From contig JAJRXC010000023.1 of assembly GCA_024276495.1 (NCBI GenBank), positions 129,484-193,483 on the forward strand: a DNA stretch of 64,000 bases. The letters are read 5' to 3'. The position numbers and the translations under genes were made by a program. Positions 5,859-36,931 of this stretch are shown here, piece after piece; position 1 is the stretch's first letter, and each line of letters starts with the position of its first letter. This DNA comes from Actinomycetes bacterium. Lineage in GTDB: Bacteria > Actinomycetota > Acidimicrobiia > Acidimicrobiales > Aldehydirespiratoraceae. Below the pieces are notes generated by a model that was given only the letters and a program-made list of their open reading frames with translations, made no database searches and had not been told where the DNA came from.

Positions 5859-6353
5859 TCAGCGGAGAAGAGCGGCTGCCTGTTCGATGTGGGGTCGAAG
5901 CGAGGCGGCATCGTCGTCGTCGCGTCCGGGGGTGGCGGCCATGACCGCGATGCCCACGATCAGTCGCGAGGCGGCGGCGTCACCGGCGATCTTCTCGACC
6001 GTCGCGCCGAGCACCGTCACCGAGACCCGCGCGGCGAACGGAATCATCGCCGCGGCCTCGCCCGGGTGATCGACGAGATAGTCGGCCGCGGCGCGGAACT
6101 TCTCGGCCGGTCCGGTCCGCGTCGCCGCGACCCGGATCATCCCGTCGATTCCGATGCCGCCGATCTCCGCCTCCAGCTTCGTCTTGTCGGGGCAGTGGCG
6201 GTAGAGCGTCGCTCGGCTCATCCCGGATCGACCAGCCAGCGCCTTCATGTCGATCGCGCCGCTCTCGGCGAGAGGAGGATTGGACATGACGATGCGGGCC
6301 GACGCGATATACCCGCTACCGTCCCTGCGAGCTCGAACGTCATCGAGTCGCAC
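5859..6353 (-). CDS. TetR-family transcriptional regulator
   Basis: The protein has 164 aa. The HTH is clear at about residues 35-60 (IDMKALAGRSGMSRATLYRHCPDKTKLEAEI). The rest is a short all-helical ligand/dimer domain, rather small for TetR proteins (usually 190-220 aa). The first 20 residues are poorly conserved, so the true start may be an internal GTG or ATG. It is divergent from the TIGR03083 gene (ATG at 6377, 23 bases away) and convergent with the PhyH gene. Control of one or both neighbours is the simplest guess; no clear operator palindrome is seen in the 23-base gap. Confidence 0.8.
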   Translation of the reverse strand: MRLDDVRARRDGSGYIASARIVMSNPPLAESGAIDMKALAGRSGMSRATLYRHCPDKTKLEAEIGGIGIDGMIRVAATRTGPAEKFRAAADYLVDHPGEAAAMIPFAARVSVTVLGATVEKIAGDAAASRLIVGIAVMAATPGRDDDDAASLRPHIEQAAALLR

Positions 6354-6376
6354 CTCGGCCGCCAGGACCCCTCCCG

Positions 6377-7108
6377 ATGAGTTCCGATCTCGACATCACG
6401 TTGCGCACCATCGCCCGCGAGGGCGAGGCACTGCTCGCGGCAGCCGAGCGACGACCGGATGCGGCGGTGCGGGCGTGTCCGGGGTGGTCGACGACCGATC
6501 TGGCGATCCACATCACGAGCGTGCACCGCCGGGTCGCCCACTGGTGTGCGAACCGGCTGGCCGAACCGGCCCGCTGGCCCGACCACGAACCGCCCGACCC
6601 GTCGGTGCCGTGGGAGTGGTGCCGCGACGGTCTGGACCTCGTCGTCGCCGCGCTCGGCGGGATCGGCCCCGACGACGCCGTCTGGTCGTGGACCGATCGA
6701 CGCGACGGCGGCTTCTACCACCGACGGATGCTCCACGAGACGGTGATCCATCACTGGGACGTACAGGACGCGATCGGGACGCCCGGCCACATCGATGCGG
6801 AGATCGCCACCGACGGCGTCAACGAGTTGACGGAGGTCGGCCTGCGGTATCGCGGCGACGGCACCAGCATCGAGTATCCCGACGGCGACGTGTTGCTCGA
6901 ACGAAGCGACGGCACCGACCGGTGGCGGCTGCGGGCGATGGACGGCACCTTGCTGGTGGCCCGCAACGGAGACGCCGGGACCAGCGCCGACGCGACCGTG
7001 CACGGCCACGCCGAGGATCTGCTGTTGTACCTGTGGGGTCGCCGCGGTCATGTGACGGTGAACGGCGACACCGACGTCGCCGAAGCCTGGACCAGGGTCG
7101 CGCCCTAG
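6377..7108 (+). CDS. Maleylpyruvate isomerase-family protein (TIGR03083, mycothiol-dependent fold)
   Basis: The protein has 243 aa. The N-terminal DinB/MDMPI four-helix domain carries the family signature AVRACPGWSTTDLAIHITSVHRRVAHW (residues about 30-56), with the metal-binding His. Further conserved His occur in the motif LHETVIHHWDVQDAIG (about 123-138). The C-terminal domain of about 90 residues is the SCP2-like/MDMPI C-domain. Members use mycothiol or act as metal-dependent transferases in actinobacteria; the exact substrate is unknown. Its TAG stop is the same CTAG that provides the stop of the convergent HTH gene. Confidence 0.85.
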   Translation: MSSDLDITLRTIAREGEALLAAAERRPDAAVRACPGWSTTDLAIHITSVHRRVAHWCANRLAEPARWPDHEPPDPSVPWEWCRDGLDLVVAALGGIGPDDAVWSWTDRRDGGFYHRRMLHETVIHHWDVQDAIGTPGHIDAEIATDGVNELTEVGLRYRGDGTSIEYPDGDVLLERSDGTDRWRLRAMDGTLLVARNGDAGTSADATVHGHAEDLLLYLWGRRGHVTVNGDTDVAEAWTRVAP

Positions 7109-7353
7109 TCGTCGGCCCGTGGGCTGGAGGTGTCGGGGTAGAGGTGTGACATCGAGCCGGGTTCGACTCGGCAACTCTCGATGTAGGCGTCGACGTCGAT
7201 CTTCTTGAGCCGGATCACCCGGCCGAACTTGAACGCGGGGAGTTGTCCCTCGTTGATGAAGCGGTACAGCGTCCGGTTGGTGATCCCGAGGCGCTTGGCC
7301 GCCGCGGGTGTCGACAGCCACTCGAGGTCGTCGGATGCGGAGTCGTCGGGCAT
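7105..7353 (-). CDS. BldC/excisionase-like MerR-type HTH protein
   Basis: The protein has 82 aa and is a single winged-helix domain. LSTPAAAKRLGITNRTLYRFINEGQLPAFKFGRVIRLKKIDVDAYIE is the standard excisionase/BldC pattern: HTH, then a wing with the hydrophobic KFGRVIRL strand. It lies next to, and divergent from, the first Tad pilus gene, separated by 114 bases that hold the pilus promoter. BldC proteins are developmental regulators in actinobacteria, so control of the pilus genes is possible but not shown. It shares the CTAG at 7105-7108 as stop with the convergent gene. Confidence 0.85.
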   Translation of the reverse strand: MPDDSASDDLEWLSTPAAAKRLGITNRTLYRFINEGQLPAFKFGRVIRLKKIDVDAYIESCRVEPGSMSHLYPDTSSPRADD

Positions 7354-7432
7354 GGGGCGATTCTCGCGCGCTTTCCGTCACTTTGTGCTCATTCCGCCCC
7401 GAAACTCTCCCTGATCGCCGATCCCGGCGCAT

Positions 7433-7461
7433 TTGCAAGGTTACCTCGCTTCTTCTAGGGT
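7433..7461 (+). promoter_or_regulatory. Promoter 1 of the Tad locus with embedded palindrome
   Basis: The -35 is TTGCAA (7433-7438), the spacer 17 bases and the -10 TAGGGT (7456-7461). The ATG of cpaB follows six bases later, so the transcript should be leaderless. Spacer and -35 contain an imperfect palindrome GCAAGGT-T-ACCTCGC (7435-7449). The element is nearly repeated at 9513-9541 before tadA (23 of 29 bases identical). Confidence 0.75.
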
Positions 7462-7467
7462 CCTGCG

Positions 7468-8184
7468 ATGGCCGCGCACTCGACGAGCGAGACTCCGGCG
7501 TCCGCCGGGAATCGGCGGGCGTTCGCGGCCCGGCGTGGTCTGCCGACCGGACGGGCCGTGGTCGGGGCGTTGCTGATGACGATCGCCGCGGTCGGCTCGT
7601 TCTCGATCGCGACGGGCGCCGACCGCGGCCCCGACGCCGAGTATCTCGTGCTCGTCGACGACATCGAGCCCGGGGATCGCGTCGGCGCCGACGATGTCGA
7701 GTTCGCCCCCATGACCCTCGCATCCGACGTCGCGGCGAACGCCCTCACCTCCACGGTCGGGCTCGAGGGCGCGACGGCACTGCAGTTCCTGAGAGCCGGC
7801 AGCGTGCTGGACCGGCGCGACCTCAACGGGGCGAGCTTCGTCGCCGGAGCACCGGTCGTCGGGATGCACGAGCTGACCTTCCCGGTTTCGCGGGATCGGG
7901 CGCCGGCCGGGCTCCGCCGCGGCGACCGGGTGACCGTCCTCGCCTTCGACGAGCGTGCGTCCGTGCTCCGCACCGCCCTCGAGGATGCCCTCGTCCTGTC
8001 CTACGACGCCGAGGCCGCAGGAATCGGCCGATCCGACGAGGCCCGACTAACTCTCGCCCTTCCCGATGCCGAAGCGGTCGTGCGGGCCACGTTCTGGAGC
8101 TATCGCTCGCTGACGATCGTGCTCACCAGCCGAGCCCTCGACGACGAGTACCTCTCGCAGTACCGCGACACCGACCCACGATGA
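7468..8184 (+). CDS. cpaB: CpaB/RcpC-like SAF-domain pilus assembly protein
   Basis: The protein has 238 aa. One N-terminal membrane helix (about 28-48) is followed by a SAF domain (residues about 55-115: YLVLVDDIEPGDRVGADDVEF... GSVLDRRDL) and a RcpC-like beta domain (ELTFPVSRDRAPAGLRRGDRVTVL). In Tad/Flp systems the protein acts outside the membrane in pilus assembly or stability. It is the first gene of the locus, starts at a leaderless promoter, and overlaps tadZ by ATGA. With no outer membrane expected, its role may be binding to the cell wall. Confidence 0.85.
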   Translation: MAAHSTSETPASAGNRRAFAARRGLPTGRAVVGALLMTIAAVGSFSIATGADRGPDAEYLVLVDDIEPGDRVGADDVEFAPMTLASDVAANALTSTVGLEGATALQFLRAGSVLDRRDLNGASFVAGAPVVGMHELTFPVSRDRAPAGLRRGDRVTVLAFDERASVLRTALEDALVLSYDAEAAGIGRSDEARLTLALPDAEAVVRATFWSYRSLTIVLTSRALDDEYLSQYRDTDPR

Positions 8185-9485
8185 CCGATGATCGTTGGGT
8201 CGTGTTGGGCCTTGCCCATCCGCGGGCCGGTTGGTTCGGCGAACTGTCCCGCTGGTCGACGACCGCGGCGATTCCGGTCGACTTCGTCAAGTGCGTCTCA
8301 CCCGACGAGGTCCGGGCCCGCCTGACCGGCGGCCGGGCCTACTCGGCCCTGCTCGTCGGTTCCGATGTCGTGGGCCTCGACCGCGATCTGGTCGACCGGG
8401 TTCGCGAGAACGGCGCCGCCGTGATCGTGGTCGGTTCGATGGACGGCCGTGACTGGCAGGAGCTCGGAGTGGCCGCGGTCCTCCCCGCGATGACCGAACG
8501 GGGCGACCTCCTCACCGTGTTGCGAGAGCACGCGATGCCGGTCCCCCGCATCACTTCGGCTCTGTCCGACAACGACGCGGCCTCCGACGCGGACCCCGAC
8601 CCGGGGGGTCACCTCATCGCGGTCGCGGGACCGGGCGGCACGGGCACATCCATCGTGGCGATGAGCCTCGCCCAGGCATTCGCCGACACGGGCACCGGGC
8701 CTTTCTCCGTCGTTCTCGCCGATCTCGCGCTCGATGCCGATCAGCACGTGCTCCACGACTGCCGCGAGGTCATGCCCGGGATTCAGGAGCTCGTCGAGGC
8801 CCACCGGACCGGGACTCTGCCAGTCGACCAGGTGCGTTCGCTCACGTTCGACGCCATCGACCGAGGCTACGACCTCCTGCTCGGGCTTCGCCGTCATCGC
8901 GACTGGACGGCCATCGGACCCCGGGCGTTCACTGCGGCGCTCGACGGGCTGCGACGCTCGTATCAGGTGGTGGTCGCCGACATCGAGTCCGACCTCGAGG
9001 GCGAGGCGCTGACCGGCTCGATCGACGTGGAGGACCGCAACGCGATGTCCCGCACCACCGCCACCCGGGCAGACCTGGTCGTGGTCGTCGGGAGTCCGTC
9101 GACGAAGGGGCTCCACGCCTTGAGCCGCACGATCCGCCAACTCGTCGAGGCCGATGTCGATCCCGCGGCGATCGTTCCCGTCTGCAACCGGAGCTCCCGG
9201 CGTCCCCGGCGACGGGCCGGCGTGGTCGCCGCTCTCGCCACCCTGGTCGGCGCCGACCCGGCCGCCCGGATCGGAAACCCGGTGTTCTTGTCCGAACGCA
9301 GCGACATCGAAGACTCGATTCGCGACGGGGCGCGGCTCCCGCCGGCCTTCGGTCGCCACCTGCACGACGAGGTGCGCCGGCGACTTGACGACCGGGTTGC
9401 GGTTCCCCCGGCGAGCGGGTCGTCCACCGAACCACACCCGGTGACTGCGGGATCTCTCGCCCACTGGACCGAAACGGCGGACTGA
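8181..9485 (+). CDS. tadZ: TadZ/CpaE-like ParA/MinD-superfamily protein with an atypical P-loop
   Basis: The protein has 434 aa. An N-terminal receiver-like domain (about 1-125) precedes a MinD-like ATPase domain. TadZ proteins localise the pilus machine. The P-loop reads GPGGTGTS (about residues 150-157) where MinD-type proteins have KGGxGKT(T/S): both the signature Lys and the phosphate-binding Lys are gone. The rest is conserved enough to recognise (VVLADLALDADQHVLHD as the switch/Walker region, LVVVVGSPSTKGLHALSRT later). It may be a non-hydrolysing scaffold, as known for some TadZ proteins. It starts by ATGA overlap with cpaB. Confidence 0.8.
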   Translation: MTDDRWVVLGLAHPRAGWFGELSRWSTTAAIPVDFVKCVSPDEVRARLTGGRAYSALLVGSDVVGLDRDLVDRVRENGAAVIVVGSMDGRDWQELGVAAVLPAMTERGDLLTVLREHAMPVPRITSALSDNDAASDADPDPGGHLIAVAGPGGTGTSIVAMSLAQAFADTGTGPFSVVLADLALDADQHVLHDCREVMPGIQELVEAHRTGTLPVDQVRSLTFDAIDRGYDLLLGLRRHRDWTAIGPRAFTAALDGLRRSYQVVVADIESDLEGEALTGSIDVEDRNAMSRTTATRADLVVVVGSPSTKGLHALSRTIRQLVEADVDPAAIVPVCNRSSRRPRRRAGVVAALATLVGADPAARIGNPVFLSERSDIEDSIRDGARLPPAFGRHLHDEVRRRLDDRVAVPPASGSSTEPHPVTAGSLAHWTETAD

Positions 9486-9503
9486 GCCTCTCCGGATTCA
9501 GTC
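9480..9503 (+). terminator. Weak hairpin at the end of tadZ
   Basis: GACTGA (9480-9485, containing the stop) pairs with TCAGTC (9498-9503) over a 12-base loop. There is no T-run. It lies just ahead of the second Tad promoter and could separate the two transcription units. Confidence 0.3.
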
Positions 9504-9512
9504 GTGCCTACC

Positions 9513-9541
9513 TTGCAAGGTTACCTTGCCTTCGCTAGGTT
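9513..9541 (+). promoter_or_regulatory. Promoter 2 of the Tad locus with perfect palindrome
   Basis: The -35 is TTGCAA (9513-9518), the spacer 17 bases and the -10 TAGGTT (9536-9541). The palindrome GCAAGGT-T-ACCTTGC (9515-9529) has perfect 7-bp arms around one base. Position and sequence match the promoter before cpaB. The expected start point coincides with the GTG at 9549, which fixes the tadA start. Confidence 0.75.
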
Positions 9542-9548
9542 GGCCTTC

Positions 9549-10850
9549 GTGCCCGCAACCGCCGCGACCCCACTCGCCGAGATCGAGGCCCGCGTCCAGC
9601 AACGAGCCAAGCGCGACGCCGTCGATCTCGACACCGCGGATTCGTCGGAGGTGCTCGCCCATCTGGTCGACGAGGAGGTCACGAGATGGAACGACGACCA
9701 TCGAGACGGCACCCGCCCCTTCCCCATCGCCGATCCCCCACAGCTCGCGCAACGGGCACTGCGAAACCTCACCGGCTACGGCCCCCTGACGCCGCTGCTG
9801 GACGACGACGACGTTTGGGAGATCATGATCAACGCCCCGGACGCGGTCTTCGTCAAGCGGCACCGCGGCCCCTCGGGCTATCACGACGAGGTCTTCCACG
9901 ACGACGCCCACGTCACCCGGATCCTCACGAAGATCCTCGACGACTCCACCAGCTCCCATCGCAAGCTCGATCCGGCCGAAGGGCTCCAGGACGCACAGCT
10001 CGACACCGGCGCCCGCCTCCACATCGTCCATGGTGACATCGCCCGCGGCGGTCACACCATCGTCAACATCCGCCGATTCACCGGCGTCACGTTCCACCGC
10101 CTCGACCAGCTCGTCGACAACGCGATGCTCACCGCCCCGGCCGCGGATTTCCTCCGCTCCTGCGTGCGCGCCAAACAGACCATCGTGTTCGCCGGTGCGC
10201 CCGGTTCCGGCAAGACCACCATGCTCAACTGTTGCGCAGCCGAGCTCGACCCCGGCCTTCGAGTCGTCACCGCCGAAGAGGTCTTCGAGGCCGACATCGC
10301 CGTTCCCAACGTCGCCGCGATGCAGACCCGGGCCGCCCGAAACGACCGGCCGGAGGTCGATCTCCGCCGCCTCGTCGCAGGGTTCTTGCGGATGGCCCCC
10401 GACATCGCCGTCGTCGGCGAGGTCAGGGACCGCGAAGCACTGCCGTTGCTGCTCACCTTGTCCTCCGGCGTGAAGGGATTCACCACCATCCACGCGGGTT
10501 CGGCCCGACAGGCCCTGACCCGGCTGAGGTTCATCTGCCAGCTCTCCGACACCGGCAACGAGCTCCCGATGACCGCCCTGAACCATCTGGTCTCCGAGGC
10601 GATCGACGTGATCGTGCACTGTGTCCGGTCCGATGACGGCCCCCGGGTCGGGTCGATCATCGCGGTCGAGGATCTCGCCACCACGGCCGGGAGCAGCCAG
10701 TTCACCACGACCGACGTCTTTCGCCGCGAGCCCGGTCGACTGTTGCATAGGACCCCGGAGATGCCCGTTCGACTCGGCTGGGCGTTCTCCGACGCTGGTC
10801 TCGACCTCGGCACCGTCCTCGACCCGGGCCGCGTTCAGGCGGCCCGATGA
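9549..10850 (+). CDS. tadA: TadA/CpaF-family secretion ATPase
   Basis: The protein has 433 aa, a hexameric type IV/II secretion ATPase powering Flp pilus assembly at the inner face of the membrane. The N-terminal domain includes GYGPLTPLLDDDDVWEIMIN. The core holds Walker A GAPGSGKTT (about 215-223), the Asp box and GEVRD region (DIAVVGEVRDREALPLLLTL), and the His box (GFTTIHAGSARQALTRL). An ATG at 9504 would add 15 residues, but these overlap the promoter, so the leaderless GTG at 9549 is preferred. tadB overlaps the stop (ATGA). Confidence 0.93.
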   Translation: MPATAATPLAEIEARVQQRAKRDAVDLDTADSSEVLAHLVDEEVTRWNDDHRDGTRPFPIADPPQLAQRALRNLTGYGPLTPLLDDDDVWEIMINAPDAVFVKRHRGPSGYHDEVFHDDAHVTRILTKILDDSTSSHRKLDPAEGLQDAQLDTGARLHIVHGDIARGGHTIVNIRRFTGVTFHRLDQLVDNAMLTAPAADFLRSCVRAKQTIVFAGAPGSGKTTMLNCCAAELDPGLRVVTAEEVFEADIAVPNVAAMQTRAARNDRPEVDLRRLVAGFLRMAPDIAVVGEVRDREALPLLLTLSSGVKGFTTIHAGSARQALTRLRFICQLSDTGNELPMTALNHLVSEAIDVIVHCVRSDDGPRVGSIIAVEDLATTAGSSQFTTTDVFRREPGRLLHRTPEMPVRLGWAFSDAGLDLGTVLDPGRVQAAR

Positions 10851-35818: not shown

Positions 35819-36931
35819 TCACGAGTCGTCGAACCGTGCCCTCGACCAGCGAAGCCACGCCTCCATGAACGGTTCGACCTCGCCGCCGAGCACCTGCTCG
35901 ACCTGGGCGGTCTCGTACTCGGTCCGGAGATCCTTGACCATCTGGTAGGGCTGCATGACATAGCTGCGAATCTGACTGCCGAACCCGACGTTTTGCTGCT
36001 CGCCGGTGATCCCCGCGATCTCGTCCCGTTGCTTCTTGCGTTCGAGATCGAGCAGCTTGGCGGCCATCATCTTCATCGCACGATCCTTGTTCTGATGCTG
36101 GCTGCGCTCGTTTTGACAGCTCGTCACGAGCCCGGTCGGGAGGTGGGTGATGCGCACGGCCGAGTCGGTGACGTTCACATGCTGGCCGCCGGCACCCGAC
36201 GAACGGTAGGTGTCGATGCGAAGATCCTTCTCGTCGATCTCGATCTCCTCGGAGACCTCCTCGAAGAAGGGGGCGACCTGCACCGCCGAGAAGGCGGTCT
36301 GCCGCTTGCCCTCGTTGTTGAACGGTGAGATGCGGACCAGCCGGTGCACACCGTGCTCGGCCTGCATCAGGCCGTACGCGTGTCGGCCCTTGAGAATGAA
36401 CTCGACATTGTTCAGCCCCGCCTCGGTTCCTTCCGACACCGCGGTGACCTCGATCGTGAACCCTCGCCGGTCGGCCCAGCGGTTGTACATCCGCATCAGC
36501 ATCTCGGCCCAGTCCTGGGCGTCGGTGCCGCCTTCGCCCGACTTGATCTGAGAGACCGCATCTCCCTCGTCGAACTCGCCGGTGAACAGTGAGCGCATCT
36601 CCAACTCGTCGAGTCGGGCCCCGAGGCCCGCGATCACCTCGGCGATCTCCGACTCGAGCGACTCGTCGCCTTCCTCGCGGGCCATCTCGTGAAGCGTCTC
36701 GGCATCGTCCAACTCGGTGCACAGCACCTCGTAGAGCTCCAGGTCCTCGGTGACCGACGCCAACTCCGACGTGACCTTGCGCGCGACGTCTTGGTCGTCC
36801 CAGAGATCCGGGCGTGACGCCTCGGTCTCCAACTGAGGCCGACGGGCCTCGAGCTCTTCGATCCGCAGATAGCCGGCCGCCTCCTCGAGACGACCGCGGA
36901 TCGCGGCGAGTTGATCGGTGAAGTCCTGCAT
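35819..36931 (-). CDS. prfB: Peptide chain release factor 2
   Basis: The protein has 370 aa. It has the stop-recognition tripeptide SPF at 202-204 and GGQ at 248-250 in SSGAGGQHVN, which defines RF2 (reads UGA and UAA). The frame is continuous from MQDFTDQLAAIRG, with no internal UGA, so this gene lacks the programmed +1 frameshift of Escherichia coli prfB. It lies 30 bases after secA, in the usual actinobacterial secA-prfB-ftsE order. Confidence 0.97.
   Translation of the reverse strand: MQDFTDQLAAIRGRLEEAAGYLRIEELEARRPQLETEASRPDLWDDQDVARKVTSELASVTEDLELYEVLCTELDDAETLHEMAREEGDESLESEIAEVIAGLGARLDELEMRSLFTGEFDEGDAVSQIKSGEGGTDAQDWAEMLMRMYNRWADRRGFTIEVTAVSEGTEAGLNNVEFILKGRHAYGLMQAEHGVHRLVRISPFNNEGKRQTAFSAVQVAPFFEEVSEEIEIDEKDLRIDTYRSSGAGGQHVNVTDSAVRITHLPTGLVTSCQNERSQHQNKDRAMKMMAAKLLDLERKKQRDEIAGITGEQQNVGFGSQIRSYVMQPYQMVKDLRTEYETAQVEQVLGGEVEPFMEAWLRWSRARFDDS

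Follow-up and report, generated by a model that had tools for sequence, protein, structure and literature searches.

Two units of one pathway that carry a common palindromic operator over the −35/−10 region, so that a split operon stays co-regulated, make up the textbook repressor regulon, and a palindrome centred 26–27 nt upstream of the transcription start lies in a position that favours a repressor. Promoters of the MerR type likewise have a palindrome overlapping the −35/−10 interval, and the abstract openings on this class give a spacer of 19–20 bp. The leaderless TANNNT signal of Actinobacteria is described, in an excerpt of PMC3160421, as lying about 12 nt before the start codon and as common in the phylum. 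BldC gives protected tracts that are one helical turn apart, and its molecules line up head-to-tail on repeats (excerpt of PMC5859096). The proteins Xis Gp37 and RdfS, which are compared and grouped with BldC as HTH-17 proteins (excerpt of PMC11963761), belong to a class described as oligomerising head-to-tail on DNA, not as binding it in symmetric dimers.

The Tad pilus locus considered here lies in the window, by which we mean the whole stretch of 64,000 nucleotides that was analysed. Its features are as follows.

7105–7353, minus strand: 82-aa HTH_17/excisionase-family protein, divergent to cpaB; the earlier candidate regulator
7360–7394, minus strand: (C/G)AA-type repeats phased at about 10 bp over the HTH promoter, with cores starting near 7394, 7385, 7375 and 7366
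7433–7461, plus strand: cpaB promoter; −35 TTGCAA at 7433–7438, 17-bp spacer, −10 TAGGGT at 7456–7461, 6 nt to the ATG at 7468; leaderless layout
7435–7449, no strand assigned: cpaB palindrome GCAAGGTTACCTCGC, one arm mismatch; centre 7442, 26 nt 5′ of the inferred start site at 7468
7468–8184, plus strand: cpaB; SAF domain, RcpC/CpaB models matched below cut-off
8181–9485, plus strand: cpaE/TadZ-like gene, named by position alone; relatives have a counterpart in the same place
9486–9548, plus strand: 63-bp spacer between the cpaE stop and the tadA start, holding a promoter
9510–9521, no strand assigned: overlapping second palindrome ACCTTGCAAGGT, 12 bp, at tadA only, its upstream bases making a third half-site
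9513–9541, plus strand: tadA promoter; −35 TTGCAA at 9513–9518, 17-bp spacer, −10 TAGGTT at 9536–9541, 7 nt to the GTG at 9549; leaderless layout
9515–9529, no strand assigned: tadA palindrome GCAAGGTTACCTTGC, perfect 7-bp arms around a central T; centre 9522, 27 nt 5′ of the inferred start site at 9549
9549–10850, plus strand: tadA ATPase; T2SSE, TadA model TIGR03819 matched below cut-off

Judging from the sequence, we consider it probable that cpaB and tadA have twin leaderless promoters with a common operator, through which one dimeric repressor, distinct from the adjacent HTH_17 protein, keeps a recently split tad operon in step.

Direct reading bears out the first-pass annotation in its account of two near-identical promoters (TTGCAA, a 17-base spacer, TAGG(G/T)T), whose 29-mers are identical at 23 of 29 bases, and of a palindrome common to both, which is perfectly symmetric at only one tad site, that of tadA. 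The consensus upstream of both genes reads TTGCAAGGTTACCT(C/T)GC-N6-TAGG(G/T)T. Relative to the −10 element and the start codon, the palindrome stands at the same position in the two promoters to within 1 nt. It is alike at 14 of 15 bases, the stretch from the palindrome to the −10 element agrees at 2 of 6, and the flanks are unlike.

Leaderless layout is common in this genome. In a rough gene set, 286 long open frames drawn from 464 kb (the window plus 400 kb), TAnnnT lies 6–8 nt before candidate starts in 59 cases over 1,091, versus 3 over 2,814 internal out-of-frame controls, the control count being back-calculated from rates per 1000. This resembles the leaderless actinobacterial promoters described in an excerpt of PMC3160421, in that TAnnnT lies about 12 nt before the start and is frequent in the genome. 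Gaps of 6 and 7 nt place the −10 elements of cpaB and tadA in the same class (TAnnnT ending 6–8 nt from the start); transcription of both genes therefore most likely begins at the start codon. Within a control set of 61 matches at gaps of 5–8 nt (60 distinct, some of which may be false sites), the tad promoter pair is a clear outlier: upstream of the −10 element its members are alike at 18 of 24 bases, and the next best of the 1,770 pairs that 60 promoters allow is alike at 14 of 24. TTG at the −35 position (spacer 16–18) is found in 4 of the 60 leaderless-type promoters; unlike the 56 that lack it, cpaB and tadA have one, placed within the palindrome. A perfect inverted repeat with 7-bp arms occurs once among the 60, at tadA.

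The genome search for the 15-bp palindrome that the first-pass annotation had proposed returned exact copies at two sites only in 4,331,422 bp, those before cpaB and tadA. The 29-base promoter at up to 3 mismatches is likewise confined to these two sites (reversed-pattern control, 0). Looser searches bring in background. With 2 mismatches allowed, the 15-mer occurs at seven extra places, and the 12 matches over both strands compare with 13 for the reversed-pattern control, i.e., chance level. At 3 mismatches the promoter form was matched 6 times, with 3 of the matches at the tad sites and 3 elsewhere, versus 5 in the control, and within the window the palindrome at up to 3 mismatches was found at both tad sites and at one 3-mismatch site at 36766. 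Six of the seven extra places lie inside open frames of at least 217 codons and are or could be coding. No open frame longer than 104 codons covers the seventh (G000:C54:1170–1184; L005 1170–1184), where a perfectly palindromic stretch of 13 bp, CGAGGTTACCTCG, stands 10–11 bp in front of a minus-strand tRNA-Ser gene; the 15-mer itself ends 10 bp before that gene. This site is either a matter of chance or a possible third target, in a different position and without a link to tad; if it is real, the regulator would not be confined to Tad. Elsewhere in the genome, two divergent promoters of the leaderless type flank a single CCCGCATGCGGG palindrome (L176 18735–18746).

Relatives were compared in a set of 61 genomes (this one and 60 others), from which 54 loci around cpaB or HTH genes were retrieved. 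CpaB (E 0.001) and TadA (E 1e-90) are each matched in 39 of the 61. The palindrome was not found in the tad gaps of 38 relatives, where the best match had 4–7 mismatches of 14; scoring covered the HTH–cpaB gap where it was shorter than 600 bp and the 150 bp leading up to the tadA match, at least one of the two being scorable in each relative. A family-wide scan for the promoter at up to 2 mismatches found it in 1 of 51 genomes, the present one, and not in the other 50. An order-wide scan at up to 1 mismatch found it in 2 of 397 genomes; the second match (G188, 1 mismatch) was rejected as a tad-linked site, as it lies in a 1,883-bp locus without a tad or HTH gene. The exact pattern occurs at five loci across the genome contigs of 84,980 species, a collection from which records very near this genome may be excluded; none is actinobacterial, and by title they belong to Methylobacter (3), Desulfobacterales and Cyclobacteriaceae. 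Zero-mismatch matches to GCAAGGTNACCTYGC in at least six relatives (L008, L014–L017, L034) were also set aside: all lie inside open frames of at least 188 aa and are thus a matter of chance or protein constraint. Four of the GCAAGGTNACCTYGC matches listed are in one gene, rplE-like by eye, and that in L034 is hisS-like by eye. A literature search for AAGGTTACCTT found, to judge by titles and abstract openings, no paper on a bacterial operator, and none of the papers searched contains both “Tad pil” and “Acidimicrobi”. The first-pass annotation had named absence of the palindrome before tad genes in relatives as an outcome that would refute it. The palindrome is indeed absent there in the relatives compared, which makes the element lineage-private but is not proof that it is inert; as the nearest relative's CpaB is 57% identical, an element shared only by closely related species would escape this comparison.

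These data bear on the possibility that a promoter was simply duplicated and that the likeness reflects the common ancestry of a strong −35/−10 pair, with no operator involved. The overall promoter identity and the restriction of the element, within the family, to this genome both agree with such copying. Fresh copying, however, would be expected to leave a matching spacer too, whereas the flanks and the 6-nt inner spacer differ while the palindrome agrees, a pattern that points to selection acting on the palindrome. Moreover, a TTG −35 is rare among the leaderless-type promoters, and the −35 hexamer alone leaves GGTTACCT(C/T)GC unexplained. We regard copying without an operator as possible but doubtful.

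The junction between cpaE and tadA suggests how two promoters came to serve one cluster. The cpaE/TadZ-like gene itself has no Pfam match at E 0.01. The junction could be read in 35 relatives, and 26 of these have a candidate start of tadA that would overlap the stop codon of cpaE by 4 nt; within the genus, the overlap is 4 nt in three of four genomes and 1 nt in the fourth. A leaderless −10 element was found before tadA in none of the 35 relatives, and before cpaB in 1 of 36 (L131). The 63-bp spacer with its promoter is thus a private change among the genomes compared.

We therefore return to the twin promoters with a common operator, as the reading under which the pieces would fit together. 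The cpaB and tadA sites would be leaderless promoters of the housekeeping type, each carrying a predicted operator over the −35 element and the upstream part of the spacer for the same symmetric, dimer-binding regulator. The putative regulator would most likely repress by blocking RNA polymerase, and the cpaB–cpaE unit and the unit consisting of tadA and what follows it would switch together. In a recent event, the ancestral overlapping junction would have been opened by the 63-bp spacer with its second promoter, the common operator keeping both halves of the split operon in step. The 17-bp spacer is of normal length, so there is no MerR-type untwisting or activation to invoke; MerR-type promoters have, by the abstract openings mentioned above, 19–20 bp, and the 82-aa neighbour shows no Pfam domain besides its HTH. 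With the textbook repressor regulon the locus shares two units of one pathway, a near-identical operator position and a symmetric site on the promoter. It differs in that the regulator is putative, that exact sites number two only and that they occur in one species among those compared; conservation of the site before orthologous genes was not found in these relatives. A search for the palindrome's owner through further sites yielded no regulator gene bearing the palindrome, which is unusual for a self-regulating repressor and counts against our preferred explanation. As a type, such a system is nothing unusual; what is new is this particular case.

The first-pass annotation had proposed a dedicated regulator binding over the −35 element and spacer, and had named the adjacent BldC/excisionase-like gene as the nearest candidate. 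A predicted operator common to both promoters is well supported by the sequence; the nominated protein is probably not its regulator, and we consider its binding to the palindrome as a dedicated Tad regulator unlikely. The proposal draws on position, the HTH_17 gene lying divergent beside cpaB in the window, and on membership in a DNA-binding family: the 82-aa protein exceeds the curated cut-offs of PF12728 (54.7 v 27 bits) and TIGR01764 (51.9 v 28.8 bits). A relative of the gene is also present in 35 of 38 tad loci (L096–L133), the exceptions being L107, L120 (where cpaB is at a contig end) and L125; in L121, L126 and L131 it lies 1.7–2.4 kb away. Yet none of the 38 relatives has the palindrome in its scored tad gaps, although the protein is 51–87% identical across 30 aligned relatives. 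Its distribution is also wider than that of Tad. It is matched at E 1e-18 or better in 53 of the 61 genomes, and of the 22 without a TadA match at E 1e-90, 16 retain it (E 1e-21 or better), two of these 16 not being clean cases (G033 has a CpaB match beside HTH_17, and G011 a weak cpaE-like match). A dedicated Tad regulator would be expected to accompany Tad, so its retention without TadA does not support the nomination. In the tad-less loci the gene often adjoins phoH-, hinT-, ybeY-, ispH-, cysK- or smpB-like genes (names by eye). HTH_17 relatives in other families of the order (L142, L145–L149) adjoin phoH/ybeY/hinT-like genes, again by eye.

The kin of the protein point the same way. By profile, the nearest solved structures are Pukovnik Xis Gp37 (4J2N) and RdfS (8DGL), members of the class described above as assembling head-to-tail. 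BldC structures were not among its sequence or profile matches up to E 10, and the single-sequence structure model of the protein was poor (pLDDT 54.7).

A separate repeat array over its own promoter, absent from the twin promoters, tells further against the HTH_17 protein as owner of the palindrome. The phased (C/G)AA repeats listed above accompany a −10-like GAGAAT at 7365–7360, 6 nt before the HTH ATG. In the 60 bp upstream of the HTH start, 30 sequences contain 35 (C/G)AA pairs at 9–11 bp, versus a shuffle mean of 14.1 and a largest value of 25, so that 0 of 500 shuffles reach 35; these repeat statistics overstate the strength of the signal, since the motif was picked after inspection and the sequences are related. 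Taken by genus, the observed pairs were reached by 0 of 500 shuffles in g1, 2 in g3, 4 in g9, 7 each in g8 and g10, 9 in g6, 70 in g4 and g5 together and all 500 in g2, which has no pair at all. The spacing spectrum over the 30 sequences is not clean, 12 bp being commonest (17 pairs) versus 13 pairs each at 9 and 10 bp. With a wider motif, 14 chosen HTH upstream sequences gave 30 versus 10.2 in shuffles (0 of 1,000). The array is present upstream of the HTH gene in L096, L097, L098, L103, L105, L109 and L134, the last from a genome without a TadA match (G002). The phased-repeat score at the twin promoters is 0 on both strands for cpaB, and 0 or 1, depending on strand, for tadA. Members of genus g2 (L099, L100, L101, L102, L104), which lack phased repeats, have other conserved blocks in the HTH–cpaB gap, e.g., CCCTGTAAATT.

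The phased (C/G)AA repeats are, on this evidence, a likelier operator of the HTH_17 protein than the palindrome is. Cores about one helical turn apart recall the smeA-sffA promoter and the winged-HTH oligomers of BldC, Xis and RdfS in the excerpts of PMC5859096 and PMC11963761; BldC itself is not matched by sequence to the 82-aa protein, and the putative oligomer analogy does not describe the palindrome.

Another neighbour is a TetR-type gene (5859–6353, minus strand). Dimeric binding to short palindromes is frequent among TetR proteins, and this one shows TetR_N similarity, albeit below cut-off, about 1.1 kb from cpaB; in the genus, its orthologues in G002, G004 and G005 stand about 1 kb away from the HTH gene. 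That it owns the palindrome is nevertheless very improbable: G002 retains the gene with no TadA match, G004 and G005 retain it without the promoter element, and near the gene the palindrome does not recur at up to 3 mismatches. The window at 5859–7108 holds the TetR-type gene and an MDMPI-like gene beside the HTH gene. Chance resemblance of the twin promoters is scarcely credible, for although by our own arithmetic an exact repeat of 14 bp would in itself be no rarity in 64 kb, both copies stand at nearly equal spacing from leaderless-type starts of one cluster and are the sole exact copies in the genome.

A broader picture, which we offer tentatively and as no more than possible, joins the twin promoters and their predicted common operator with the repeat array. 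The HTH_17 protein, widespread in an order that is by inference Acidimicrobiia-like, would form a head-to-tail filament on the phased (C/G)AA repeats of its own leaderless promoter, beside tad or phoH-type genes, and in one species Tad would have moved to a private palindromic switch that coordinates the split pilus operon. The locus offers a clean sequence example of how a pilus operon can be split and rewired, probably without losing its co-regulation. It also turns attention to a small, widely conserved DNA-binding protein with a predicted repeat-array operator, and away from the palindrome.
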